Positions 20,999-45,765 of a stretch of DNA of 64,000 nucleotides are shown piece by piece. The notes below the pieces were generated by a model that was given only the letters and a program-made list of their open reading frames with translations, ran no database searches and was not told where the DNA came from. Source of the DNA: Tausonia pullulans (Eukaryota > Basidiomycota > Tremellomycetes > Cystofilobasidiales > Mrakiaceae); contig OX637637.1 in NCBI GenBank assembly GCA_951802195.1, forward strand, positions 186,001 through 250,000. Direction: 5' to 3'. Each line of letters opens with the position of its first letter. Position 1 is the first letter of the stretch. The translations under genes and the position numbers were made by a program.

Positions 20999-21706
20999 CG
21001 GGAGGGGTTGAGGGGAGAAGGGGAGAAGGGGCGAGAGCCGCAGGAGACGGCTGGATGGAAGGGGAGGAGGGGTGGTGGCTCGAGATGGTTGTCAGAGAAA
21101 TCGCCTTGGGAGGAGAGAACGGGAAGATAGGACGAGGCGACGGCGGCCTGTGACCGCGCGCTGGTGCGCTTCACCCAAAGTCGCGAGTTGAGGCGGTGGG
21201 ACATACTTCTTTGCTTGGTCTCCGCCCAGCGGCGGTCATTCAGCCTTCGGGGTCTCCAGGACTTTCCAGATGACGCCCGCTACACCAACAATCCTGTGCT
21301 GTGCATATGGGCAACATTGGATTCTGCGCGAGACAACCGCCCGCCTGCGGCTTTTCCATCGTTCTAGTTGGTCTTTTTGTTTTCTAACCACCCGATCACC
21401 CGCAACTTATAAGTACAATTTATTTATGTATTCCATACACCATAGTCAATGGGAGAGAGGAAGTTGGATACCAACCCCAGAAGCTCTTACCGATGCCTGT
21501 CGGCAGGCTTGCGCGTCAATGATGATGGCATTGTTTTCAGTATTCTGGACATTTATATCCGCTCATAAGAACATGATAGAGGAGGTGGATGAAAGATGGG
21601 TCGTTTGGGGCAACACCCCCTTGGTCCGAGTGACAGACCTGGAGGTGCCAGGCTAGGCCCGCAGGGCTAGGAATGGGCGGAAGTGAGGCAAGGCTTCAAG
21701 TAACGA
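20999..21706. other. Syntaxin promoter region, left edge of the repeat island
   Basis: About 700 bp with no supported gene. GC content drops from 21370 onwards, marking the transition to the repeat-rich island. Confidence 0.5.
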
Positions 21707-22248
21707 TTTTTTTTTGTATTTGTAACGACAATCATTTCAACCTTTTTTTTTGTATTTAAGTCATGAGTTATACGTAGAGGACGAAGTAACCCTATGAGAG
21801 ATGATGATTCGTAGCTAGATAGAAGGAAAGCGAAAATTAAAGTAGGGATGGAAGGAAAACAAAAGATGGGTCATGGACATAAGTCCGTTAGAAAAGGTAA
21901 GATATTAAGATGACCAGCTACATCAAGCAGTGGCTATGGACCAGCCATACTTCCCCACCCCAGACCTGCTTGTCACCCAGGATCGATGTCGGCGCCGACC
22001 GCAGTTCCATCCATCTGGTCCCTGCGAGCTATCCACCTCGTACTCGACTGCCAGTGTGTCTGCCGGATCATAGACGCGATCTTGCGGATCTCCTCGTCCG
22101 TGACAGGGTCGAGGGCTGCGATCTTGCTGTACCTCCGCCTCCGGACGAATCGCCATGTCCGAGCTACAAAGATGCAGTGGAAGAGGAAGGCCGCCCTCGG
22201 CGGCGACGGCGTCGGGCAGACAAGCGTCTGGAGGGACGGAGGATGGGA
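21707..22248 (-). mobile_element. 5'-truncated LINE copy with 3' tail
   Basis: On the minus strand this matches the 3' end of the LINE at 24-30 kb: the last ~110 codons of ORF2 (compare 24120-24400) and the 3' UTR ending in a GACTTAAATACAAAA-type tail near 21742. A second short A-rich tail lies at 21707-21741. The 5' break is at about 22248, where the sequence switches to the upstream flank of the permuted tRNA-Gln. The copy is nearly identical to the longer element over the shared part, so the insertion is fairly young. It cannot encode the enzyme. Confidence 0.85.
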
Positions 22249-22368
22249 GTCTTTTGGTTGTCTTTTGGCTGGACAGATGATGATTCGAGCTTTTGCGCGA
22301 TGCCAGGAACAAACGTCGCCTGTTTGCGCGGCGTTCGCTGTCTGTTCTCCATCGAGAGCATAGATCCT

Positions 22369-22470
22369 CCGAGCAACCTCGGTTCGAGTCCGGGCACTGC
22401 CTGTCCGCCTGTACGATCATGTACAAGGCACGGCGGTGTAGTATAGATGGTTAGTACACTCGGTTCTGAA
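22369..22470 (+). tRNA. Permuted tRNA-Gln(CTG), copy 1
   Basis: The 3' half is at 22369-22402 and the 5' half at 22432-22470, with a 29 nt linker between. Rejoined as 5' half plus 3' half they form a 73 nt cloverleaf. Acceptor: GGCGGTG with CACTGCC (one G-T pair). D stem: GTAT with GTAC. Anticodon stem: CTCGG with CCGAG. T stem: CTCGG with CCGGG. The anticodon CTG (22466-22468) follows TT. Invariant T8, A14, G18, G19, A21, T54-T55-C56, A58 and the G15-C48 pair are present; the discriminator base is T. The Pol III B box therefore lies upstream of the A box. A TTTTT run (22478-22482) follows. No 3' half lies downstream, so no ordinary intron-bearing reading exists. Confidence 0.82.
22403..22431 (+). 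other. Structured linker of the permuted tRNA-Gln
   Basis: The 29 nt linker joins the acceptor 3' end to the acceptor 5' end in the precursor. It can fold on itself: GCCTGTAC (22407-22414) pairs with GTACAAGGC (22421-22429) with one bulged base and a 6 nt loop. The linker is identical in all three intact copies. In known permuted genes this part is removed by RNase P and tRNase Z. Confidence 0.7.
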
Positions 22471-22477
22471 GACAATC

Positions 22478-22482
22478 TTTTT
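22478..22482 (+). terminator. Pol III T-run after permuted tRNA-Gln copy 1
   Basis: TTTTT seven bases after the 5' half. Equivalent runs follow copy 2 (TTTT, 23345-23348) and copy 3 (TTTTT on the minus strand, 32062-32066), placing the end of the transcript after the 5' half as expected for a permuted gene. Confidence 0.7.
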
Positions 22483-22486
22483 GCCA

Positions 22487-23102
22487 CCGCTGTCGAGACG
22501 GTGGAGGAAGAGAAGACTACGGAAACACGGCGTGCTCACACCCGCTGGTAGTCGTGCGGCAATCCATCCCATCACGCACGCGTGGCGGTGCAGAATCTCC
22601 TGCTGGTCAGGATCTCATAGGGTTCACTCGCCCGCCGGCACCTCCTCATCCCTTCCACCTCGCTCTTCCTTCAGTCATCATCATCTCCTTCGCCGCCGAA
22701 TCCCTCGCCTTCCCGTCTCTCTCTGGTCCCTCGCCTCACAACCGTACGAGTACGACCGTACGCCAAACCTCCACGAACCCGACCGTGTCTGGTGTCTCTG
22801 CCTCTTTGACCGGTGACGGGCTCACGCTTGGTCTCCCCGTCTCCCCGTCTCCCCGTCTCCTCGTCTCCTCAGTCTTCGAACCCTGCCGCATGTTCGCTAT
22901 ATCCGAGAGACGGGGTCCTTTCCAAAAACGACCGCGCTTCCCTCATCAGTATCTCCATGGTTTTATTCACAGAACTGCATCAACACCTTCAGCTCAAGCC
23001 GCATCCGTCCTCCATCTGCCACGTATACATCGCTTCCCCGGCACCCCTCCCCTCACGCCGACGGTTGCAAGCGTGCTGGAGGATGCGGGTGAGAGCTTGG
23101 AC
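22487..23102. other. Spacer between the two duplicated tRNA blocks
   Basis: About 615 bp without a recognisable gene. It contains a short GTCTCCCC tandem run near 22832-22860. The open frames here are not conserved-looking and run into the duplicated block. Confidence 0.45.
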
Positions 23103-23350
23103 GTCTTTTGGCTGTCTTTTGGCTGTCTTTTGGCTGGACAGATGATGATTCGAGCTTTTGCGCGATGCCAGGAACAAACGTCGCCTGTTTGCGCGGCGTT
23201 CGCTGTCTGTTCTCCATCGAGAGCATAGATCCTCCGAGCAACCTCGGTTCGAGTCCGGGCACTGCCTGTCCGCCTGTACGATCATGTACAAGGCACGGCG
23301 GTGTAGTATAGATGGTTAGTACACTCGGTTCTGAAAACAATCCCTTTTGC
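23103..23350 (+). repeat. Duplicated block, copy 2
   Basis: Second copy of the block at 22249-22486. It has three GTCTTTTGGCTG units at its left end where copy 1 has two; the remainder matches almost completely until just past the T-run. Confidence 0.9.
23234..23335 (+). tRNA. Permuted tRNA-Gln(CTG), copy 2
   Basis: 3' half 23234-23267, 29 nt linker, 5' half 23297-23335. Both halves and the linker are identical to copy 1; the trailer differs slightly (AACAATCCC before TTTT). It shares the same ~120 bp upstream sequence as copy 1, so whatever drives one should drive the other. Confidence 0.8.
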
Positions 23351-23633
23351 CGTGTATTCGAGGAGGTGGGCGAGCACGCCGATTGAGAAGGGGCCGGGCT
23401 GGCAGGCAGACGGATCATTTTGCACCATCATCTCCACCACCCTCAGTTAGTATGATCTGTTTATATAATCCAGTTCGCAAAGAATATTATATGTATGTTG
23501 TTATGGCAATGTTGTTGTTAGTACTATCGGCATGTTTGTTCTCATTGTTTATATTATGACCATCTGATCACTCCCGATTTCAAGACGCAATAATCGTAGT
23601 CACGGGAGAGGGCGGGAAGCGAGAAAATCCAAC
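23351..23633. other. AT-richer spacer between tRNA copy 2 and the LINE array
   Basis: About 280 bp of lower-GC sequence with no ORF or RNA gene that I can support. Confidence 0.4.
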
Positions 23634-23891
23634 CCTTTTTTTGTATTCAACAACAACTATACGTAGAGGACGAGGTGACCCTATGAGCGATAGCGAGTCG
23701 TAGCTAGATAGAGGGAGAGCGAAGATCAAAGAAGACGTGGAAGGAAAGCAAAAGATGGGTAAGGGGTATAGGCCCATTAGAAAAAGTAAAATGTTTATTT
23801 TTGTTGTATTTAAGTCATGAGTCATACGTAGAGAACGAGGTAACCCTATGAGAGATGGTGAAATGTTTCTTTTTGTATTTAAGTCAAAAAT
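23634..23891 (-). repeat. Stack of truncated LINE 3' tails, head to tail
   Basis: Reading leftward after the 3' end of the long LINE, three further 5'-truncated pieces of the same 3' UTR follow, each ending in an A-rich tail after a (G)ACTTAAATACAA-type motif. The last piece (about 23634-23790) is the longest and the most diverged. The shared core is TCATAGGGTTACCTCGTTCT or close variants. Confidence 0.8.
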
Positions 23892-24119
23892 GTTTTTTTT
23901 TGTATTTAAGTCATGAGTTATACGTAGAGAACGAGGTAACCCTATGAGAGATATCGAGTAGTAGCCAGATAGAGGGAGAGCGAAAGTAAATAACAGGTAG
24001 AAGGAAAGCAATATATGGGTGTGGACATAGGCCCATTAAAGAGGTAAGATATTAAGATGACCAGCTACATCAAGCAGTGGCTATGGACCAGCCATACTTC
24101 CCCACCCCAGACCTGCTTG

Positions 24120-27100
24120 TCACCCAGGATCGATGTCGGCGCCGACCGCAGTTCCATCCATCTGGTCCCTGCGAGCTATCCACCTCGTACTCGACTGCCA
24201 GTGTGTCTGCCGGATCATAGACGCGATCTTGCGGATCTCCTCGTCCGTGACAGGATCGAGGGCTGCGATCTTGCTGTACCTCCGCCTCCGGACGGATCGC
24301 CATGTCCGGGCAACAAAGATGCAGTGGAAGAGGAAGACCCCCCTCGGCGGCGACGGTGTCGGGCAGACAAGCGTCTGGAGGGAGGGAGGATGGGAGGGGA
24401 GTGAAGGAGAGGCACGCGCTGCCGCAGCCGACCAGATAGCGCCCACGACGGGACACGGCTCGTCGAAGAGGTGGAAGAAGGACTCGACGGGGGCCGTCAG
24501 GCACAGCGCACATCGCTTGGACCTGTTGTGCGGCGTAGCGGTTCCGTCGGCGAGGAATGCCGCAGCAGTATGCTTTCCTGGGTGGAGGCTGTACAGCGAG
24601 AAGCGATGGGCCAAGTCGACGTCTTCGGGCGACGCTCGGGACACGGCCTTGAGCAAGCACCACTGCCGCTTCCAATCAATCTTGGTGAGCGCCGGGAAGT
24701 GGTCCTGCCAGCCCTTTGGGATGATGAGGCCGCGGTTGGCTAGAGTACGACTGTGTGCGCCGTGGGGTTCACGAGGGGCGTTCAGCCGGCCGAGGTTTGT
24801 GTGGATAGGGAGGAGACCCAGCCGCAACTGGCTATCTGTACCGAACGTAGACATCCAGTGGACAGCGTTCCTCCAGCGGTCTTGATTCCAATAGCTCATG
24901 TCAAAGCTGACTTCTTCGAACCATGCCCGGAGGTAAGCCTGGCATCGCGCAGGGAGAGCTCCTTGGAGCTTTGTGATGGCATTCCACCAGACGGCTGGGA
25001 AGAACCATTGACCTTCCACTGGGGAAAGGAATACGCCTAGCCAGCTGAAATTGGCGGGCCGAGGTCCTCTGATGAACTCTCCATCCCGGAAGATGGTGCG
25101 AGTCAGCATTCTATAAGCTTCTGGATCGAGGCTCATGGTATGGATGATGCGCTTGCGAATGCGGATCGATGCGGGAAGCTCCGGTCTGAAGAGCACATCG
25201 CCCGCCCACTGAGCGCGCGCTTTGATGAGCCGGAAGCGGAGTGGCGTGAAGCCGAAGCCGCCGAGGTCTCGAGGGGTTTCTAGACGTTCTCTGCTGACGT
25301 CGTGGTGTTTCGATCGGTAGAGGGACTTGTAGGCCGTTGCCTCGAGGTCTTCCAGGATATCGTCTGGGCACGGCAGGAAGCGGTCCAGGTAGATGATCTT
25401 CGAGTAGATGTACTGGTTGATGACGTTGCATCGCGCAAGGAGAGGGAGATCGTGCAGCGGGATGCGAGCAAGACGAGCCTTCAGCTTGCCGATGACATCT
25501 CGCCAGCAAGCAGGCACGTTGACCGTGCGACCGCATGGAACGCCGAGGAAGTCGAATGAAAGCGTTTGGACGCGCCATTCGTGGTACCTCGTAGGCGCAT
25601 CCGTCCGGCATGACCCTAGAGGATAGAGGAGTGATTTCTGGTAGTTCAGCTTGCTTGCTGCGGCTTTCTCGTACTCTCGGAGGCAGACCGTCGCCTCATC
25701 GACCTCCGACCAAGTCCGACACCGGATACTAAGATCGTCTGCAAAGAGAAGGGCCTTCCGCTCATGTAGAGGGGACGGATTGGCCGGTAGGAGGCGATGG
25801 CGGAGCATACACGCCAGCGGCTCCAGAAGGAGGGCGAAGATCGTCGGTGCCGCGGGATCGCCCTGTCGGACACCAGACCGGATGTCGATGGCTTGACCCA
25901 TCCATCCGTTGATCATGAGCCGAGCTGTCTGGGAGGTCATCGTTGAGGTGATCCACGCGGCGGCGCGTGGGCCAAACCCCATGTGGCGGAGGCAGGGGCC
26001 AACAAAGTCGTGCGATACTCTGTCGTATGCCTTCTCAAAGTCGACTTGGGCGAGGACGCCAGGTAAAAGGTCTTCGTCGTCAATGGCGAGCTGGAGAGAG
26101 GAGATGTTGCGACCCGAGTCGCGGCCAGGGAGGAAGCCTGTCTGGTCCCCGTCGATGAGGGTGTCCACAACGGTGAGCAGGCGGCTGTTGATGGCAAGGG
26201 AGAAGATGCGTGCGTCAACGTTGATGAGCGAGATCGGACGATAGTTGGCAATCTGGTCGCGATCTCCCTTCTTCTTGAAGATGAGATGGATATGGGCCTC
26301 GCGCTGTGAGGCGGATCGGAGGCCTGTCTCCGGAACGAGGTTCAGTAGGCTGAGGAGGATCGGGCCGACGACAGCCCATGTGGCCTGGTAGAACTCGACG
26401 GGGATCCCGTCACTTCCTGGTGTCTTGTTACGGTTCGATCTGAACGTAGCCCGCCTGAGCTCGTCCGGTTCGAAGGGTTTCTCGAGGGTCCGACTCTGGG
26501 AGTCGTCGAGTGTGTTGGTGACATATTGGAGGGCGTTGGCGTGCTCGGCAGCTGGCGTCGTCTTGGTCTCATAGAGAGTCGTGTAGAAGGTGTGTGCTGT
26601 AGCTAGAATGCTCTCGTTGTTTGCGATGGCTGCGGCTGCTGGGTTGTCGAGAGGCCGCAGGGCTGCGATAGTGTCGGCCTGGCGGACGATCTTGAGTCGC
26701 TGCTTGACGGCATACTCGCTTGTGTTGGCTGGTTCGAGGTGGGCTCGAAGAGCGTGGCCTTGGAGGATCGACCTGTGTGGATCCCCGCCCGACACTCTGC
26801 TCATTCGGGCGAGGTGTCTTGAGATGCAAGACGCCTGTTCCGCTATCTGACGCTTGGTCTTGTCCCAGGCCTCGAAGGGGTCTCTGATCTCGGTGAGCGC
26901 ATCTTGGTACCACTTGGGAACGTGGTAGAGGAAGTACTCAACAAAACCGGTAATCTTCAGAAGGTGAGTTCCGATCTTGTACGATCCGGGACCGTGCTCT
27001 ATTGCACCGGGGAAGGTGAGGCTGAGTGCGATCGGCTTGTGGCTGGAGTACAGGTGGCCAGACGGTCTTGGCAGGAAGCGCTGTTGCACGGCTCGGCTGG

Positions 27101-27794
27101 CGAGTAGAGGGGACAGATAGAAGCGATCGATGCGGCGATCTGCTCGCGTGATGCCAGTATAGTTAGTGTATTCGCGCTGGAGCGGGTATAGGGATCGGTA
27201 TGGGTCGGAGAGGGCAAAGTCCCGGGCCAGCCGGCACATTTCCTCCTTTCCCGCGTTCTGGGTAAATTGGCTCATCCCGTCGAGGTAGCTGTCCTCCACA
27301 CAGTTCCAGTCCCCTCCCAGGAGGAGAGGAATGTCAGAGTGGGCAGGTATCTTGCGAGATAGAGTAGAGAGGAACTCCTTTGTCGAGCGGCCGTTCGTTT
27401 GGCTGTCTCGGCAGGGGACATAGACTGCGGCCACCCTGACGGCTTCGCCGGCTATGGTGAAGACAGCATCCGTCAGGTTGGTTTGTAAGATGGGGGAGGA
27501 GCGGGAGATGGATCTGATCCTAGTTGGAGGGGTATCAGGAGGAAGGAATCGAGAGGCCTGCCGCCAGAGGATGGCAGTCTGGCATCCGACCGTAAAGATC
27601 GAGCCGAAGCCCATATCTTCACACTCAGCTGTCCAGGTCGCCACCTGACCTGGTGTTGTGCATGCTATTTCTGAGAGAAGGTATATGTCAGCCTTGGATC
27701 GTGAATATAGAGAGAGGAGGAGACTGCGGGCGCGATCTCGCGTGAACACCCTCTGGATGTTCGCCGCGACGATCTGTACATCATTGTACACCAT
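24120..27794 (-). CDS. LINE ORF2: AP endonuclease and reverse transcriptase
   Basis: 1224 residues, intact. The N-terminal endonuclease covers roughly residues 1-250, with LLLGGDWNCVED, ITRADRRIDRFYLSP and the C-terminal SSHKPIAL motif typical of APE-type LINEs. The reverse transcriptase covers roughly 430-700: NKTPGSDGIPVEFYQ, ANYRPISLINVDARIF, QVDFEKAYDRVSH, SGVRQGDPAAP and the catalytic LLFADDLSI. Near residue 1085 CALCLTAPVESFFHLFDEPC fits the zinc-binding segment often found after the RT of such elements. The start ATG at 27794 overlaps the ORF1 stop (TAATG), suggesting coupled termination and reinitiation. The product would nick DNA and prime reverse transcription in the nucleus. Confidence 0.92.
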   Translation of the reverse strand: MVYNDVQIVAANIQRVFTRDRARSLLLSLYSRSKADIYLLSEIACTTPGQVATWTAECEDMGFGSIFTVGCQTAILWRQASRFLPPDTPPTRIRSISRSSPILQTNLTDAVFTIAGEAVRVAAVYVPCRDSQTNGRSTKEFLSTLSRKIPAHSDIPLLLGGDWNCVEDSYLDGMSQFTQNAGKEEMCRLARDFALSDPYRSLYPLQREYTNYTGITRADRRIDRFYLSPLLASRAVQQRFLPRPSGHLYSSHKPIALSLTFPGAIEHGPGSYKIGTHLLKITGFVEYFLYHVPKWYQDALTEIRDPFEAWDKTKRQIAEQASCISRHLARMSRVSGGDPHRSILQGHALRAHLEPANTSEYAVKQRLKIVRQADTIAALRPLDNPAAAAIANNESILATAHTFYTTLYETKTTPAAEHANALQYVTNTLDDSQSRTLEKPFEPDELRRATFRSNRNKTPGSDGIPVEFYQATWAVVGPILLSLLNLVPETGLRSASQREAHIHLIFKKKGDRDQIANYRPISLINVDARIFSLAINSRLLTVVDTLIDGDQTGFLPGRDSGRNISSLQLAIDDEDLLPGVLAQVDFEKAYDRVSHDFVGPCLRHMGFGPRAAAWITSTMTSQTARLMINGWMGQAIDIRSGVRQGDPAAPTIFALLLEPLACMLRHRLLPANPSPLHERKALLFADDLSIRCRTWSEVDEATVCLREYEKAAASKLNYQKSLLYPLGSCRTDAPTRYHEWRVQTLSFDFLGVPCGRTVNVPACWRDVIGKLKARLARIPLHDLPLLARCNVINQYIYSKIIYLDRFLPCPDDILEDLEATAYKSLYRSKHHDVSRERLETPRDLGGFGFTPLRFRLIKARAQWAGDVLFRPELPASIRIRKRIIHTMSLDPEAYRMLTRTIFRDGEFIRGPRPANFSWLGVFLSPVEGQWFFPAVWWNAITKLQGALPARCQAYLRAWFEEVSFDMSYWNQDRWRNAVHWMSTFGTDSQLRLGLLPIHTNLGRLNAPREPHGAHSRTLANRGLIIPKGWQDHFPALTKIDWKRQWCLLKAVSRASPEDVDLAHRFSLYSLHPGKHTAAAFLADGTATPHNRSKRCALCLTAPVESFFHLFDEPCPVVGAIWSAAAARASPSLPSHPPSLQTLVCPTPSPPRGVFLFHCIFVARTWRSVRRRRYSKIAALDPVTDEEIRKIASMIRQTHWQSSTRWIARRDQMDGTAVGADIDPG

Positions 27795-29704
27795 TATTCT
27801 TCCATGTCCTCGGCTTCAGCCAAGGTCACGAGGGTGCGCTCGATGGATGCCTGGGAGGACGGCGTGGAGGAGATGAGAGAAGGAGTGGAGGGTGGGTTTA
27901 GGGGGATTGAAGATGGGGGGGAGGGGGATGAGGGAGGGGGAGACGATGGTGACAGGGGAGGTGGGGTGGGAGGAGGATGCTCGTCTTCGACCTGCATCCC
28001 GTCTTCTGTCCTCTCCAGACCCCCCTCGTTGTCCTCCTCTAGGGCGCTCAGCGTGCGAATGGGTTGCGAGCCCGCATTGCGCGGTGCTTGCTCTGAGTGG
28101 GAGTGGGAGGAGTCGGCGTAGGCAGGAGGTGTCACCACCTCCGTCGTGGCTTCCGTCGGCCTGTTCAGTGACCTCCTTTTGGATTTTTGTACGAGCTGGT
28201 ATCCATCCAGGTCTGTTCCCGGTTCGACAGGTCTCTGGGGGGGTCCTTCGGTTGGTGCTCGCGCATTCGCTGGAAGGTTTGCCTTCGGACGACCTGGGCA
28301 TCAGGCCGATGGGTGAGCGTGCGATCCGCATCCGCCACACTCTGGAGCGGTAGGACACTTGGCACGAGCGTGCTCAAATGAGTGGCAGTAATAGCAGTAT
28401 GACGAGGCTGGTCGAGCTGGAGAGTTCGTCCCAGTGCCAGGTTGGACAGGTTTGAAGATGACATGTTGGTTGACCCAGCCGGGTAGCTGTTGAGGGAATG
28501 CATTTGCCCTCGGCATCGTCTTGGAGCCAGAAAGGTCGAGCAGGACTCTAACCCGGCCAGTTGGGACGCCGGGTAGGCGGGCGTAATACTGACGCTGGAA
28601 TATGATGACTCTGTCTCCAGAAGCTTCTACTTGTTTGCGAAAAGCTTCCTCCACTCCGTCTTCGTCTTCGAAGTTCACCAGCAGACCTTCTTGCAGGAGC
28701 TTGTTTTGGGAATTGTAGCACGCGTGGATCTGGGGTTTGACGCCTCTCACATTTAGCGGGAGGGCCTGTAGTTGAGTCAAGATGTCTTGAGCATTTCCTC
28801 GGGAGTTGACTATAAGGAGCATTCTGTCTTTTGGGTCCTTGACAGGACGGATCATGAAAGACAGTCGTTCGTCGCACTTTGAGATTGCGAGAGAGATCTC
28901 GAAAGGAGTGGTATCTCGAGGGACTGAGATGGCTAGACAGTTCCCGCGGTCGGTAGCCAAGGCTGGGGCGATTGGGGTATTGTCCTGCGGATGTTGTTGA
29001 GCGGTTCCGAAGACGAAAGGGAACTGGGGCTGGGTGCCAGACGAGTCACGTTGTCTCGCAGCTGAGGTTGTAGGATGAGCCTGTTTGGCGGCGTTCGCAT
29101 ATGAGCGGCCGATGGCGTTCGGCTGGGATTTCGCGGCGGCGCGAGTGCGAGTGCGAGTGCCGGCGGAGTTCGCCGGCACGGGCGACGCGGTGCCGGGGAC
29201 GAAGAGAGGTTGTTGAGGGAGAGTCTCGCCTGTAGAGCGAGACGGAGTGAGACGCGTCACTTCGGACGTGGAGGATAGAGCGGCATTGAGGTCGCTGATG
29301 GCTGAGCTCGACCGCGTGATACGGCGAGCTGGGGGAGTTGCAGGAGTTCTGCGGAGGGGGGAGGGAGAAGAGAGGAGGGCCGTGGGGCTGATATGGATAT
29401 GGGGCGTGGTGGGGTTGGTAGGGTTGGTACGATTGGTACGATTGGTAGGAGTGCTGGGGTCGGTAGGATTGGTAGGAGTGCTAGGGCTGCTAGGACTGGT
29501 CGGATGGGCAGGTGGGCTGAGAGTGGGTTTGCTGACGGGCGTTTGAGGACGTTCGTCGACGCGAGAGGGCGTATTGGTCGCGTCTTGGACGCTGGGGGTT
29601 TCATCGGATCCACTCTTTCTCTTTGCTGGAGAGGGAGGGTCTGGGGGATCCTTGGGAGCCTTGAGGGCTTCTTGGAGTCGCTTGGGGGTTGATTCACTAG
29701 GCAT
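27794..29704 (-). CDS. LINE ORF1: Gag-like protein with zinc knuckles, one in-frame TGA
   Basis: Nucleic-acid-binding first ORF of the LINE. Starts MPSESTPKRLQEALKAP with a Pro/Thr/Asn-rich region containing PTNPTDPS-like repeats, then an RRM-like or globular domain around LAISVPRDTTPFEISLAISK. The first zinc knuckle reads CYYCHSFEHARAKC (CX2CX4HX4C). The second reads CGGCGSHAH, three residues, a TGA codon (28301-28303), then Cys, so the spacing of a full CX2CX4HX4C motif is kept only if the TGA counts as one residue. After it the same frame stays open to the TAA at 27794-27796. The most economical reading is a recent CGA-to-TGA change; readthrough is the alternative. Confidence 0.8.
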
Positions 29705-29756
29705 AAGGTAGGGTGACCTGGATTGACCTGGTGGTGGTTTTTTGTAGTTTTTTTTT

Positions 29757-29903
29757 TAGTTTTTTTTTGTATTTAAGTCATGAGTTATACGTAGAGAACG
29801 AGGTAACTCTATGAGTTTTTTTGTATTTAAGTCATGAGTTATACGTGGAGAACGAGGTAACCCTATGAGAGATAGCGAGTTGTAGCTAGATAGAGGGAGA
29901 GCG
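29757..29903 (-). repeat. LINE tails immediately upstream of the full LINE
   Basis: Two further truncated 3' tails in the same orientation as the long LINE, each with the TCATGACTTAAATACAAAA-type end at its left side. The long element therefore begins directly after the tail of an earlier insertion. Confidence 0.82.
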
Positions 29904-30132
29904 GACATGACCGAGCGCGAGAACGTCGGGCGAGGCGCCGTGGGAAGAGGGTTGGCCGAAACACTGGGGATGGTTGGCCGGACGGCGTGATGGGCGCCGT
30001 GAGAGGGGGGGGGGGGGGTTGGTCGAACCACCGGGATGGTGGTTGGCCGGAAGGGGGTAAAAAAGACCATTCCCATCAGTGATATGAATGTAAACACTGT
30101 GCGCACCTAGTATATCAAGTCTCTTCGACACT

Positions 30133-30281
30133 GACCCAGTGGTGTAGTGGTATCACGCGTCCTTCGGGCTTTCATAACCCGCCCCACATCGGGGTAGCGA
30201 TCTGGACGATTTCCTTCATTCGCAGGAGACGGTTCACCTCGATCATGGACGAGGTCCCCGGTTCAAATCCGGTCTGGGTCC
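30133..30281 (+). tRNA. tRNA-Pro(CGG) with a 77 nt intron
   Basis: Acceptor GACCCAG pairs with CTGGGTC; D arm GTG/CAC around TAGTGGTAT; anticodon stem CGTCC pairs with GGACG; T loop TTCAAAT with A and B boxes intact. The anticodon CGG (30165-30167) follows TT and is followed by G. The intron runs from 30169 to 30245, directly after base 37 as usual for nuclear tRNA introns, and holds AACCCG, which can pair with the anticodon region CGGG. The T stem has one C-T mismatch at its outer pair. The 77 nt intron is long for a fungal tRNA. LINE tails end 230 bp upstream. Confidence 0.82.
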
Positions 30282-32034
30282 ATTTTGCCGCGGTCCTTGG
30301 CTCTGTGGTCTTCCCTTGCGCTAGCTACCTTCCGTGAGGTCCAAGTTGGACCAGCGGGCATGGATCCTAGACCCTCCTGTAAACCTCCCTCGACGAGCAA
30401 CACTTTAACTGCGTGGAAGTCACTTGTCAAGTGCGGAGGAAGCGAAGCCAAGCAAGGGCCGAAGACATCAAGATCTGCTCTCTTCGCTCCTCTGCCCTCA
30501 ATCTTTTTCTTTTTTTTTTTTCGCTAAAAATGATAATGCTGATTGTACAGGCTCTGACGCACAAAATTGAGCCCCAGGTGGACATGAGAGCGCGCCAAAC
30601 GACGTCGATGAGGACGGTCTCCCATCGGAGGGCATCTCCTCTCGCCGTCGTCGACCCTGCTTCTCGGACGGTATGCAGATTTCGTTCTGCGCTAAGCCTT
30701 CGGCCAATACGGTGTTCCGTTTGCGTTTGTATGCGTCGGTAGGAGTGGAAATGAAGTGGTGCAGATGGTGTTAAGGTCAAGGTTCGCCCTGGGGTCCAAT
30801 GTGGATGCAAGCTTGCTTCGATATCTTGGGCTGGTTTGTCGAATCCAAATGGTAGTCAGGTTATAGAACAAAAGGTACGATCAACTGAGTGTCTTTGGGC
30901 TAACGGTAAGAAAACAAGGAGTGTGTGACAGTGTGGCTGAAGAGAGGCTGAAAGTATGGAAGCCGAGCAAACAAGGGCGCTGCTACACAGACGCGGAGCC
31001 GAGGTGGCGGGTCCGCGAGATTCTGCAGCCACATAGGCGCAAAGCCAATGTGGTGAACCCGTAAGATCCTGACACTCTAGGTCTCCGAGAATCGCACCTT
31101 CCAACAGATGGCAGGGGCTCGTCTCGAGATGTTGGGCAGGTTTGTCGAGTCCAAATGATAGCCAGCCAGAGTGCAGTACAAAGTGTACGATGGACTGTAA
31201 GTTTTCTGGATGAGGGTGAGAACAGGGGGAATGGCAAGGACTCCGGAGCGGGGGGGGGGGGGGGGGGACCAGAGAGAAAGGAGTATGGATCAGATGAGAC
31301 AAGATCAGGAACGAATAAATGAGAATGCTGTATGAGGAAAGGAAAAGCTACACTGACGCCGAGTTGACCAAGCGCAGGACCGAGATGGTAAATTTGGGAG
31401 ATCCGGGATATTCTTACATAGGACCGCTGTGGCAAATCCAGGATATCCGAAAATCCCGGGGATTAAGGAGAATCGGACACTGTGTCAGGATCGCGCTCTA
31501 CTTTCGCCATTGACAACTTGGTCTCATACTATCGGGTCTCACGTGTTCCGATTCAATGCCTTGCACCCGGCCATGTGTCAAAACGGCCAAAGCATGAACT
31601 CAGTTCCTCAAACGCAGACTCAGGAGTGGCCAGACGCAAAGCCGAAATGGCGGGTCCGCGAGGTCTTGACACTTGGCGGCGAGTGAGTATACATGCGGAT
31701 CTTAGTCGTCGGTCGAGTAGGGCAGTGAGGCACCTGCTACATGGCTCGCGAGATTGTCGCGCAGGTGTGCGGTGAGAGAGGGCTTGCGTCAAAAGGGGTT
31801 CAAAAAACCAGGTGGATCGATAATAATGGCAAGAGACCAGGCCATTGGAGGCTTACTCATAAATTACAGACCGAGGGGTCGGGTAAGCGAGACGGAGCCG
31901 TGAGAAGGCAAGACTGGAGCAAGAAGAAGGAAAAGAGACAGAGAGGGACACGGGGAAATGATTCACAGTGAGGCCACGAGGGAGGGCCAAAAATAAGACT
32001 GAGATGCTGAGATAGCTAGACATCTCTCTCCGTC
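30282..32034. other. Gene-poor stretch with degenerate repeats
   Basis: No supported gene over 1.75 kb. Blocks at about 30830-30900 and 31130-31205 resemble each other (CAGGTTTGTCGAGTCCAAAT and a related version). A second motif around TGGCGGGTCCGCGAG occurs near 31000 and 31650, with weaker relatives near 31070 and 31385. This looks like an old, decayed tandem duplication. A G17 homopolymer is at about 31251-31267. Confidence 0.5.
30800..31690. repeat. Degenerate tandem repeat region
   Basis: At least two motif families recur at 250-400 bp spacing: one around GTTTGTCGA(A/G)TCCAAATG(G/A)TAG and one around GGCGGGTCCGCGAG. Identity is partial, so borders are approximate. Confidence 0.5.
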
Positions 32035-32073
32035 TTCCTCCACCGTCTCGACAGTGGTGGCAAAAAGATTGTC

Positions 32074-32175
32074 TTCAGAACCGAGTGTACTAACCATCTA
32101 TACTACACCGCCGTGCCTTGTACATGATCGTACAGGCGGACAGGCAGTGCCCGGACTCGAACCGAGGTTGCTCGG
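32074..32175 (-). tRNA. Permuted tRNA-Gln(CTG), copy 3 (inverted)
   Basis: On the minus strand the 3' half is 32175-32142, the linker 32141-32113 and the 5' half 32112-32074; all 102 bases match copy 1. A TTTTT run follows at 32066-32062. Homology with copy 1 continues ~40 bp past the T-run but upstream it stops within a base or two of the first CCGAG base of the 3' half. So the upstream region differs from copies 1 and 2, which makes this an independent context for the same gene. Confidence 0.8.
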
Positions 32176-32269
32176 AAAATATATCTCAACGTGAAGATCT
32201 CAACATCGGTTTGATGCGACAACAGCAGCTCAGAGGAGACACGTTCTGGCTGCACAATGCGAAGGGATT

Positions 32270-32352
32270 TTCTCTATCTAGCTACGAATCACCATCTCTC
32301 ATAGGGTTACCTCGTTCTCTACGTATAACTCATGATTTAGATACAAAATAAG
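32270..32352 (+). mobile_element. Short 5'-truncated LINE tail (plus strand)
   Basis: Matches the LINE 3' UTR from CTCTATCTAGCTACGA to the ATTTAGATACAAAATAAG end. It lies ~95 bp upstream of permuted tRNA copy 3 and points away from it. Confidence 0.8.
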
Positions 32353-34611
32353 TATATTCTTACTTAATTTTTGAGCATTCTTCCCTCTCCTCTCCTCCCT
32401 CCCCCCTCCCCCCCCCCTCCTCATCTGTTCTCTCCCCTCCCCTCCTCCTTATGTGGAATCCCTATCCCCTATGTCAGAGTTGGTGATGGTGGTGGCAGCC
32501 TTGATACCGGTGCTGGATGTGTTGGTCGTGATGAGGGTCGTTGGCCGTGGGGGTGCGTTCCTGGTGTTCTCCTCATCCCATTCTTCCCTCGTCCTCCTTC
32601 CAACTCTCCTATCTCTTCCTCTTTCCCCTACCATTCATTCTTCATTCCTTTCACCCACCTCTTCATCCCCTGACTTCTTTGTGCCATTCCCACCTCTTTC
32701 GGGAGCGCGCGCGCTATAGTGGGCTCCCCTTCTCCCCATCCGCTTCCTCCCATTGACGACAGCCAGTGCAGGTCTAAGCTGCGGGCGACTCGATGGGTAG
32801 AATACGAAAGAGGGAAGATAAGCGATGGCGTTGAGAACTGCGCCGCCGAGGTTCGTGTAGCGCGCGCTTGCAGGGAAAGGAAACGGGCGAGTGCTTACCG
32901 CTCTTACTGGTCGTAGAGCGCGTACCTCCTCTCAACAAGAGCAGCAGAAGCGACGGGACTGTTTGACGATTTTCTCTCGATGGACCGAGGCAGTGCGAGA
33001 GAGACAAGAGAGAAATGACTCGCGCGCAGATCTTGCGCAAAGGCAAGGCAGCTAACTAAATATCGAAGAGTGAGATGAGCGAGCGCGTCTTTTCGACTCA
33101 AACCTCGCTGTTTCTCTCTCTATCCTGTCTCATTCGATGTACGTCCCTGGTGTGGAGATGAAAAGGCGGGGGAGATGAACGTCGTCATGCAAGCTGCTGG
33201 TCCTCCTCGTTGAAGTCGAATGCAACTCACGCTCGCCACGGAGGTGGCGGTCTGTCTGCTGTCCTTCATTCCCACGGGATGGCTGCTGGGCCGTGCAAAA
33301 GTCCTGTGCCAGGCATAGCCATCAACTCTCTCTCGCAATTTCCGGGCGGGTATTGGGGGACGCCAGGGAACGAGGCCTTGGGGAGGCGAGCCTTGAGCGA
33401 GCTGTCCTCGCCTGACTTCCGCGCGGTCTCCTCGCAGCGTGGCTTTTTCTTGGGCGACTTGATCTCGACCACCTCACCCTCGCCAGCACCAACCCCCCAA
33501 CACCAGCCTAGGGCCCTCCCTCGAGTCGGCTCTCCCCCTACGATAACGCCGAAGGACCAAAGAGAAGATTTCCGTTTGAAAAACCTAGAGGTCCGTCGAG
33601 TTCCTCAGCCCAACCGTGGTCCGGCTGTCCGCCTGCCTGCCAGACCCGCGAAAAGCCTGACTGACGTACGCTCGCCCTTTTCTCCCCCTCGTCCCTCCAT
33701 CCTCGTCGCCTTCGCCTCTTCACGTTCCCATATCCTGCTCGCTCTGTCGCTCACTCGTGTGCCTGGTTCCTCATTGTCACCGTGCCGCGTCCCGACCCTC
33801 ACCCCTTGGCCCACGACCGTGTCCTTCCCTCGTTCCTCGCTGCTCGCCCGTTCGACCGACCGCCTTCTCTCCCTTCGTTCGCTCCCGCCCGTCTGTGTCT
33901 CTCCCTTCTCTCGTGGCTCCTGCAGTGGTCCCAAGTTCGAGGTACGTTCTTCTCCCTCACCTGCCCCACAGCCAATGTGAGGGGCGGTCGAGCCTCCGAT
34001 CGTCGGCGGGCGGAGTGGCGGAGGGGAAATCAGCAACAGCCTCACAGGTCCTGACATCCGCCCTCCCATTCAGGAGAACCACCCTAACACGACCCCCGAA
34101 GCACATAGGAATCAAATCACCACGACCACCCGCTCCACGCCTTCGTCAGTCCCCGCCTCTGCCCGCTCGTGTGGCTGAGCGAGAGGTTCGCTCGGGCCAG
34201 TGGCGCCTTTGAGCGGGCCTCGACTTCATCGCGCGCCCGCGCCCTGTCCATTTCGCGCGCTCTCAGCTCACCCGGTTCCCTCGGTCTCTTTCTTCACTTG
34301 ACCTCTCAGAGCCCCTGCCCGTCCGTCTCCGTCGCCCGTCGACCGCCCACCCCCCGACTACCCATCTGCTTCTTCTCACGCAGAGAAGAAGCTCTAGCCG
34401 CCGCATCGAAGACACCAAGCGTAACGCCGGGGTTCCCCCCTCCGCTACGCCGTCAGGTCTCATCGCCAGCTCGCCACTCACCGCACGCGCCGCTCGCCCA
34501 ACCTAAAGACTTTCTCATCGACATCACCCAACGCTCGCCACTACCGCGCCCGGCTCAACCCATCGCTATCATCTCCAGCCCCACCAATCCTCGCTCCCCC
34601 GAAGAAAGTCG
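32353..34611. other. Intergenic region and long leader of ornithine decarboxylase
   Basis: 2.26 kb without a supported gene. The right part (33.7-34.6 kb) is CT-rich and likely the ODC promoter and leader. Between the ATG at 33975 and the start at 34612 I find no other ATG on the plus strand. Confidence 0.5.
33975..33980 (+). promoter_or_regulatory. Minimal AUG-stop upstream ORF before ODC
   Basis: ATG directly followed by TGA, about 630 nt before the ODC start and the only upstream ATG in that interval. If it lies within the mature leader it could act as a start-stop element that stalls initiating ribosomes. Its presence in the mRNA is not shown; leader splicing could remove it. Confidence 0.35.
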
Positions 34612-36513
34612 ATGAACGACACCCCACAGCTGACCCAGCCGCCCTCGACTACCGCCACTAGTACCATCCCCGCCAGCCACACCACAATCACCCCAGTCAT
34701 GTCTGCGACATCTGTCCTGCTCCCCGCTGGCAAGACCTTCTCCGGCGCCGACTTTGGCCGCAGGGAGACCCTCAAGGCCAAGAAGGCTCCCGCCGACGCC
34801 GGTTTCCTCCCAACCCCCCCGTCGACCTCGCCTCCCCCCCCCATGGCATCCGCCCGGCTCGCGCCCGCGGTTACCCTTGAGACGCAGGTTCTTCCGCCTT
34901 TTCTGGCGGGTGCGGCCGAGATGGTCATGGCCTCTCGCATCGCCGAAATCGCTCAGGGCTTCGAGGACGAGGGTGCCTTCTTCGTTGGCGACCTCGGTGA
35001 GGTCTGGAAGGCTTGGAAGAGCTGGAAGACCCACCTCCCGCGCGTTGAGCTTTTCTACGGTGCGTGGTATCTCATCGACTTCCGGTCCTTCTTTTTGCGG
35101 ATCGCTGACCTTAACCGTCTCTTTTCCCTCATAGCCGTCAAGTGCAACCCGGACCCGCTCGTCCTCCAACTCCTCGCCTCGCTCGGCACGGGCTTCGACT
35201 GTGCCTCTCAGGCTGAGATCATCAACGTCCTTTCGCTCCCCTCGCCCCCGGACGCCTCGCGCATTATCTTCGCCAACCCGTGCAAGCCGGCTTCTTTCGT
35301 CCGCTCAGCGCGCGCCTTCGGCGTCGATGCAATGACATTCGACAACAAGGACGAGCTCGTCAAGATCGCGCAGCTTCATCCAGGAGCGCGTCTTGTCCTC
35401 CGCATCCTCACGGACGACTCAAAGTCGCTCTGCCGGCTCGGCCTCAAGTTCGGCGCCCCCGTTGAGACGTGCCCTGCGCTCCTCGCGCTTGCCCGCTCGC
35501 TCAACCTCGACGTTATCGGTGTCTCGTTCCACGTCGGCTCGGGCTGCAAGGACCCCCAGATGTTTGAGGACGCCGTCGTCCGCGCCCGCTCCGTCTTCGA
35601 GATGGGTCGCCGCGAGGGCTATGCCTTCGACTTCCTCGACATTGGAGGTGGCTTCGAGGCCGAGAACTTTGTAACCACGGCCGAGGTTCTCTCTGGAGCG
35701 CTCGAGAGGCATTTCCCTCTTGAGAGCGGCGTCCGCATTATCGGCGAGCCTGGAAGGTTCCTCGTCTCGAGCGCTTTCACGCTCGCGACCAACATCATCG
35801 CTAGGCGCGCGGCCTCGGCACGCATCAACCCTGCTGTCCAATCATACAGCGGCGAGGATTCGGATGAGGAGCTTGGCGTCAGGACTCCCGTCAGCGAGGG
35901 CGATGCCGAGATGGACTTCATGACGAGCTCCGTTGTCTCGCTCGATGGCTCCCTCCAGGGCTCGCAGCACCTCGGTGTGGCTGGCGAGGACGCCGATGAG
36001 AGTGGACCCAAGGTCATGTGTGAGTAGCGCCTGCGCCCCCTCTCCCTTATTCTCACCGTACCCTCGAGTATTCATGTTGCCCTATTTTCTCCTCTAGACT
36101 ACATCAACGACGGAGTCTACGGCTCCTTCAACTGTATTATGTTCGACCACCAAATCGTCCACCCCTTCCCGCTCACTCTCGCCGGCGCGCCCCGCCCCTT
36201 CCCTGCGGCGTTCCCCCCGAACGTCCAGCTCGAGGAGGATCTGACTGTCGGCATGGGCTACTCTCGCAAGACCGTCGAGCCCGCGTCCGTCTGGGGCCCG
36301 ACGTGCGACTCGATTGATTGCGTCCGCAACGTCGTCATGCTTCCGCGTGAGCTTCAGGTCGGTGACTGGCTTGGATGGGGCGAAATGGGCGCGTACACCA
36401 TCTGCGCGGCTTCGACTTTCAATGGGTTCAAGAAGAGCCCCGTCCACTACACGACGGGCGCGGACCCGGAGGCGTCGTCAGCGGTCCTCAGGATCCTTAG
36501 CGGACACTGCTAA
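34612..36513 (+). CDS. SPE1: Ornithine decarboxylase
   Basis: PLP enzyme that converts ornithine to putrescine, the committed step of polyamine synthesis, in the cytosol. Exons 34612-35059, 35135-36019 and 36098-36513 give 582 residues with matching phases. PLP lysine in AVKCNPDP; GVSFHVGSGCKD; LDIGGGF; GEPGRFLV; and the second active-site region WGPTCDSIDC with the catalytic Cys. An acidic, Ser-rich insert (EDSDEELGVRTPVSEGDAE and on) of ~70 residues sits before YYINDGVYGSFNC, longer than in yeast or mammalian ODC. The N-terminal ~85 residues are Thr/Ser/Pro-rich and not conserved-looking; the ATG at 34699 is the alternative start. I chose 34612 because it is the first ATG after a long ATG-poor leader. 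Confidence 0.93.
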
Positions 36514-45304: not shown

Positions 45305-45633
45305 TGCTTTGGGCATTCTCTTTCAAGACGGGGATAGAGGGAGGCCCTTCGAGCCTCCCCTCTATCGGGGACAAAACAGCACGAATGGAAGCAGATTGCA
45401 GGAGCTTTTCGACACCACAGTCGACTCCAACTTCGACAGTCAATACTGCCCTCCAACCTATGCTCTCTTGGAGCTCTCCTCTCCTACTGACACCCCTGTC
45501 CTGCTGGATGACGACCTGCAGCAAATCGGCGAAAATGAAAGACGACAGGAGTAGTTCGATCGCTGAAACAGGTTTGATCCCATTCCTCCTACATCTGTTC
45601 GCTGTGTTCACATCAAGTCGAACGTAAGAACTT
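45305..45633. other. Intergenic flank of MOSC gene
   Basis: 330 bp without a supported gene. Confidence 0.4.
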
Positions 45634-45765
45634 CCGAGTATTCTCGGCTCAAGTCCAGGCACTAACTAGCCCTGTCTCATCTTCATTTAGTCCGGCATTG
45701 AGTGGTAAAGAGTGAGTCTTCCATCTGGCGGTGTCGTATAAATGGTTAGTCCACCCAGTTTTGAA
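45634..45765 (+). pseudogene. Decayed permuted tRNA-Gln copy
   Basis: A 3' half-like segment at 45634-45667 begins CCGAG and contains CTCGG, a degenerate B box (CTCAAGTCC) and CACTAAC. A 5' half-like segment at 45727-45765 begins GGCGGTG, has the D-arm TGGTTAGT and ends TTTTGAA (anticodon position TTG). The linker is 59 nt. The order is the same 3'-then-5' permutation as in the intact copies. Pairing is broken in both the acceptor and anticodon stems, so it is a relic. Confidence 0.65.

Follow-up and report, generated by a model that had tools for sequence, protein, structure and literature searches.

In a 64-kb stretch of fungal DNA, hereafter the window, a tRNA-Gln(CUG) is encoded at 22368-22482 with its two halves in reversed order, the 3' half being followed by a 29-nt spacer, the 5' half and a T-run (Table 1). 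An earlier note on this DNA had proposed a permuted tRNA-Gln(CUG) gene in a fungus, with the 3' half upstream of the 5' half and a cloverleaf that forms only when the two are swapped, and this reading of the sequence is supported by the same order at all 21 loci of this tRNA in the assembly. Judged from sequence, each intact unit very likely functions as a circularly permuted tRNA gene, of type II with its break between positions 37 and 38.

Joining 22432-22469 to 22368-22402 yields a mature tRNA-Gln(CUG) of 73 nt that forms a full cloverleaf, with an acceptor stem of 7 bp, a D stem of 4 bp and anticodon and T stems of 5 bp each (21 standard pairs, G-U counted). The joined sequence carries the consensus bases T8, G15-C48, G18G19, T33 and T54T55C56, and CCA is not encoded in the permuted Gln units. 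Four paired stems, the invariant bases, the G15-C48 pair, the total of 73 nt and a T-run after the 5' half had all been noted before and are confirmed here. The break, placed earlier at 22369 and 22470, was one base off and belongs at 22368/22469. The boundaries of the matches fall at 1-38 and 39-73 of the joined sequence and correspond to a break A37/T38. We assign T22368 to position 38, because T is the base before CCGAG at all 21 Gln loci, whereas the base after A37 varies (A, G or T). ARAGORN reported no tRNA in the whole 64-kb window, and an Rfam scan of 21000-25000 gave no tRNA match and four matches below threshold. Since ARAGORN finds nothing here, programs built for ordinary genes may miss permuted ones, and further fungal cases have possibly been overlooked.

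Table 1 Permuted tRNA-Gln(CUG) units in the window
Feature	Position	Strand	Details
3' half, copy 1	22368..22402	+	tRNA positions 38-73; contains B box
Spacer, copy 1	22403..22431	+	intervening sequence, 29 nt; links both acceptor-stem ends
5' half, copy 1	22432..22469	+	tRNA positions 1-37; anticodon CTG; contains A box
T-run, copy 1	22478..22482	+	Pol III-type terminator
3' half, copy 2	23233..23267	+	
Spacer, copy 2	23268..23296	+	
5' half, copy 2	23297..23334	+	TTTT begins 10 nt past end
3' half, copy 3	32142..32176	-	
Spacer, copy 3	32113..32141	-	
5' half, copy 3	32075..32112	-	TTTT begins 8 nt past end
Decayed permuted copy	45633..45764	+	3' half-like 45633-45667; 5' half-like 45727-45764

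The window holds three intact permuted copies and one decayed copy. The latter has the anticodon TTG, broken stems, a 60-nt spacer and mismatches at 8/33 and 6/38 positions of its halves, and TTTT is absent from the 36 nt that follow it. The earlier statement that no matching 3' half lies downstream of the first unit is literally wrong, as the second permuted copy starts at 23233, 763 nt beyond the first 5' half. This spacing would suit a tRNA gene in ordinary order in which a long intron separates the 5' half of one copy from the 3' half of the following copy. However, those 763 nt include the T-run at 22478-22482, and the 3' half at 23233 is followed, across a 29-nt spacer, by a 5' half of its own. 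Most loci lack a nearby second copy (C1:751729-751812, for instance, stands alone), several pairs are in opposite orientation, and the acceptor-stem variants described below agree within each locus. In each of the 22 permuted units (21 Gln and one Thr, see below) TTTT begins 7-17 nt beyond the 5' half, and it never occurs inside a unit (0/22), whereas only 2.9% of random window positions have TTTT within 17 nt. A long intron of this kind is scarcely credible.

In the assembly searched (23.86 Mb in 21 contigs), a scan that allowed up to three mismatches placed the 3'-half motif at 21 sites, 16 of them exact and five with one mismatch. A 5' half follows 41-83 nt downstream of the motif start at all 21 loci, and none lies within 400 nt upstream (0/21). 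The loci are spread over seven contigs (C1, 1; C11, 3; C12, 3; C14, 1; C16, 2; C17, 2; C18, 9), and a search with the 5'-half motif returned the same 21 plus the decayed copy, at window position 45742. The earlier note had named an ordinary-order tRNA-Gln(CUG) elsewhere as evidence against its reading. Sought across the assembly with the joined 73-nt tRNA as query, such a gene was not found: there are 42 matches, 21 to five-prime and 21 to three-prime halves, broken after A37, and none of full length, in a search that ignores the most frequent words and scores its top candidates alone. Therefore, no ordinary-order tRNA-Gln(CUG) is detectable by this search in the assembly. Exact half patterns also gave no match in viral contigs and prokaryote genomes.

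The suggestion that these units are the only source of a CTG-reading tRNA stands in part. No other Gln(CUG) gene appeared in the assembly search, but CAG can also be read by tRNA-Gln(UUG) through wobble. A nuclear tRNA-Gln(UUG) was not located in either order by an incomplete genome search; yeast and human tRNA-Gln(UUG) queries gave no match to the genome, a result that shows little without a positive control. The Rfam tRNA search of the genome scored 63 of 897 candidates and so does not give the full tRNA set. CAG exceeds CAA by 13:4 in the RPB2 exon on contig C13 and by 9:2 in the ornithine decarboxylase (ODC) frame of the window, and a tRNA with a CUG anticodon is therefore in demand. The product of the permuted units would be the main, and possibly the sole, tRNA matched to CAG.

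The pattern of sequence change among the copies argues for function. The 21 loci share three mature sequences, yet their spacers come in 14 versions and their 60-nt flanks in 17 versions upstream (leaders) and 20 downstream (trailers). Among the nine copies on C18, differing sites number 0/2628 in the mature parts and 48/1044 in the spacer, compared with 783/1830 upstream and 824/2088 downstream in the 60-nt flanks; for the five copies on C11, C12 and C14 the corresponding values are 0/730, 11/76, 231/596 and 295/574. Gene conversion may keep the halves identical; conversion sparing just the tRNA parts on either side of a diverging spacer would not be easily explained. Between the three mature variants, acceptor pairs 3-70, 4-69, 6-67 and 7-66 have changed on both sides, and in the DNA the spacer separates the compensating bases. 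All 63 cells (21 pairs in each of three variants) are paired, which was reached by 4 of 500 shuffles, and partners slid out of register are at most 48% paired. This covariation, drawn from three variants only, counts as support for function and not as a tree-based test.

These observations bear on a rival account in which the units are silent pseudogenes or a SINE-like tRNA repeat, with a working Gln(CUG) gene unseen or unassembled, or with CAG read by tRNA-Gln(UUG) alone. Such an account would fit the clustering of partly duplicated copies on C18, the existence of one decayed copy, the inverted A and B boxes and the retrotransposon pieces that adjoin several copies. Yet the mature parts are static while spacers and flanks drift, the groups do not have flanks in common (17 leaders and 20 trailers for 21 loci), and no other Gln(CUG) gene emerged from the assembly search. 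The pseudogene alternative, which the earlier note had itself raised, is further opposed by the small number of mature sequences among 21 copies, the compensatory acceptor pairs and the Pol III-type terminators found in 22/22 units, and we regard it as very unlikely.

Permutation extends to a second isoacceptor. A permuted tRNA-Thr(UGU) lies at C2:1549210-1549338 (-), with a spacer of 53 nt, a break at 37/38 and TTTT 8 nt past the 5' half; the matches to the joined sequence are bounded at 1-40 and 41-76. No ordinary-order tRNA-Thr(UGU) was found, the joined Thr query matching just its own two halves genome-wide. This gene was recovered, together with Gln units, by a scanner for permuted tRNAs (T arm and acceptor, then acceptor, D arm and anticodon stem) applied to 323,839 bases of partly overlapping assembly sequence, and three block shuffles of the same bases gave no permuted match. 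Across the 22 permuted units, spacers range from 4 to 53 nt. A further 61 T-arm sites in 60 stretches (40 of 98 places, 15 from the best 100 of 110 and 5 from the best 100 of 163) comprised, by the same scanner, 47 ordinary sites, one of them weak, 14 that were neither, and none that was permuted. Among the ordinary sites Leu, Ser, Pro, Gly, His, Asp and Val predominate, and many carry introns. As 0 of 61 sites are permuted, permutation is the exception in this genome, as far as this partial survey goes.

How the permuted units are transcribed is of interest, since the B box lies before the A box. An upstream A box does not exceed the level of random 90-mers, and a TATA-like element is found upstream in 1 of 13 dissimilar permuted contexts compared with 24 of 105 ordinary ones. 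A search for the B-block domain of TFIIIC gave one partial match of 28.7 bits (cut-off 22), which is weak because prokaryote controls also match (8/14, four of them above the cut-off). It seems fairly probable that in this fungal lineage, which splices tRNAs in the ordinary way, permuted genes are the sole source of both Gln(CUG), from 21 dispersed loci, and Thr(UGU), from a single locus, with obligatory circular intermediates, and that Pol III initiates on them despite the B-before-A order and with no TATA element standing out upstream.

We propose the following route from gene to tRNA. RNA polymerase III would transcribe the whole unit, from leader through 3' half, spacer and 5' half to trailer, into a single RNA, which would fold into a tRNA with its open ends in the anticodon loop. 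There, the splicing endonuclease would cut after A37 and before T38, at the site it uses for the introns of ordinary tRNAs in this genome, and the fungal tRNA ligase would join 37 to 38 into a circle. Cleavage by tRNase Z after T73 and by RNase P before G1 would then release the spacer, and CCA would be added. By analogy with algal cases (PMC3978253), cutting and ligation to a circle followed by opening with RNase P and tRNase Z is the likely order of events. As for origin, two tRNA-Gln genes with introns, lying in tandem, probably lost their outer halves, and the resulting unit would then have spread to 21 loci.

The 37/38 break coincides with the canonical intron site, and in ordinary genes for Lys, Asp, Tyr and Pro in this genome ARAGORN has the intron begin at position 38. 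Leaders pair better with their own trailers than with swapped ones (mean -6.9 vs -5.6 kcal/mol; permutation p 0.008, 13 contexts). Under the anticodon-intron pair rule, base 32 pairs with base -3; this pair is possible in nine of 21 Gln units and in Thr, and impossible in 12 Gln units. A uniform motif resembling a bulge-helix-bulge was not seen at the break in the leader and trailer sequences. In minimum-energy folds, three of the 22 precursors contain all four stems, a result that weighs little because the joined Gln tRNA (all three variants) and five of six ordinary tRNAs likewise miss the plain cloverleaf. Recognition of permuted precursors by the splicing endonuclease appears plausible. 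The same endonuclease and ligase could presumably also join two molecules, so that halves from different transcripts might be trans-spliced with no circle, and the many identical copies would offer partners. In contrast, both halves are present at each locus, 4-53 nt apart and with a matching acceptor stem, and algal permuted precursors of like layout have been shown to circularise (PMC3978253). Trans-splicing is thus a slim prospect, and we favour processing through a circle.

As the earlier note had said, the class has precedents in algae and archaea; what appears to be new is the fungal host and the number of copies. Permuted tRNA genes have been described in some unicellular algae, a nucleomorph and one archaeon. 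A 2014 review counts 34 of them across six species of algae and a single archaeon, with type II the commonest in green algae, and considers permutation at 37/38 in other eukaryotes plausible, though most lack such genes (PMC3978253); Auxenochlorella has been added since (PMC12636532). The closest counterpart is in C. merolae, which has a permuted Gln(CTG) gene of type II with a 31-nt spacer, as well as Thr(CGT) and Thr(AGT), and in which a T-stretch follows the 5' half and the intervening region carries no signal (PMC3978253). The two organisms agree in the order of the halves, the 37/38 break, the short terminator-free spacer, the T-stretch, the lack of an encoded CCA, the standard consensus bases and the isoacceptor, Gln(CTG). 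They differ in that the review table gives one Gln(CTG) gene for C. merolae, compared with 21 loci in the fungus, in that ordinary tRNA genes remain the majority in the fungus, and in that most C. merolae genes have an upstream TATA-like element (PMC3978253), whereas none stands out upstream of the fungal units.

Type II permuted genes occur in prasinophyte green algae and the nucleomorph of Bigelowiella natans (PMC3978253), and permuted genes also in Auxenochlorella (PMC12636532). Like the fungal ones, these are nuclear eukaryotic genes; most of them break at 37/38, and their spacers measure 5-64 nt. They belong to other isoacceptors, mainly Ser, Leu, Cys and iMet, and for the prasinophytes and B. 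natans at most one gene is listed per anticodon and break type in each species (PMC3978253, Table 1). The permuted tRNA-iMet and tRNA-Tyr of Thermofilum pendens share with the fungus the reversed halves in one transcript and the status of the permuted gene as the only one for its anticodon, whereas they differ in breaking at 59/60, in encoding CCA and in having an additional intron at 37/38 and an archaeal promoter (PMC3218864). We found no report of a fungal permuted tRNA gene among the open-access papers listed, judged by titles and the openings of abstracts; in the available portions of PMC3400036, PMC4090602, PMC4033280 and PMC8450103, mentions of fungi or Basidiomycota concern ligases, introns and other tRNA matters and not permuted tRNAs. 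A fungal case would show that the permuted order can be fixed, multiplied and relied upon beside ordinary 37/38 introns, presumably with standard fungal enzymes sufficing. It would also open the use of inverted internal promoters by Pol III, and the origin and spread of permuted genes, to experiment. If both isoacceptors are indeed encoded by permuted genes alone, these would be an essential family present in many copies beyond algae and archaea.

Several other features of the window and the assembly were recorded. A non-LTR retrotransposon lies between permuted copies at 24120-29704 (-), with an RT domain (PF00078) and a CCHC-like frame at 28301-29704, and repeats resembling its tail occur near 21743-21840, 23632-23990 and 32272-32367. 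The tail motif ATACGTAGAG is present at only six places in the window, all within 21770-32317, and in 21 of 30 partly overlapping ordinary-tRNA loci (L027-L056); at locus L086, the 3' portion of a tRNA-Leu directly adjoins such a repeat. The element may target tRNA genes. Dense, partly mirrored clusters of repeated tRNA genes (Leu, Lys, Asn, Glu, Ala and others), many with introns, occupy about 673000-1374000 of contig C6. Contig C21 (18.8 kb; locus L064) is apparently mitochondrial, with nad4-like and atp6-like frames and several tRNAs, the best match of the nad4 product having 51% identity. From two protein comparisons we take the host to be a basidiomycete. For the ODC fragment at window positions 34612-36027, the named fungal matches among the 120 listed are basidiomycete, with 45-69% identity over part of the query, and mayfly and mite records also rank high (37-44%). 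For the RPB2 exon, compared only with proteins of about 170-540 residues, Mycena and Desarmillaria fragments reach 81-84%, other named fungi 76-83% and a metagenome protein 92%.
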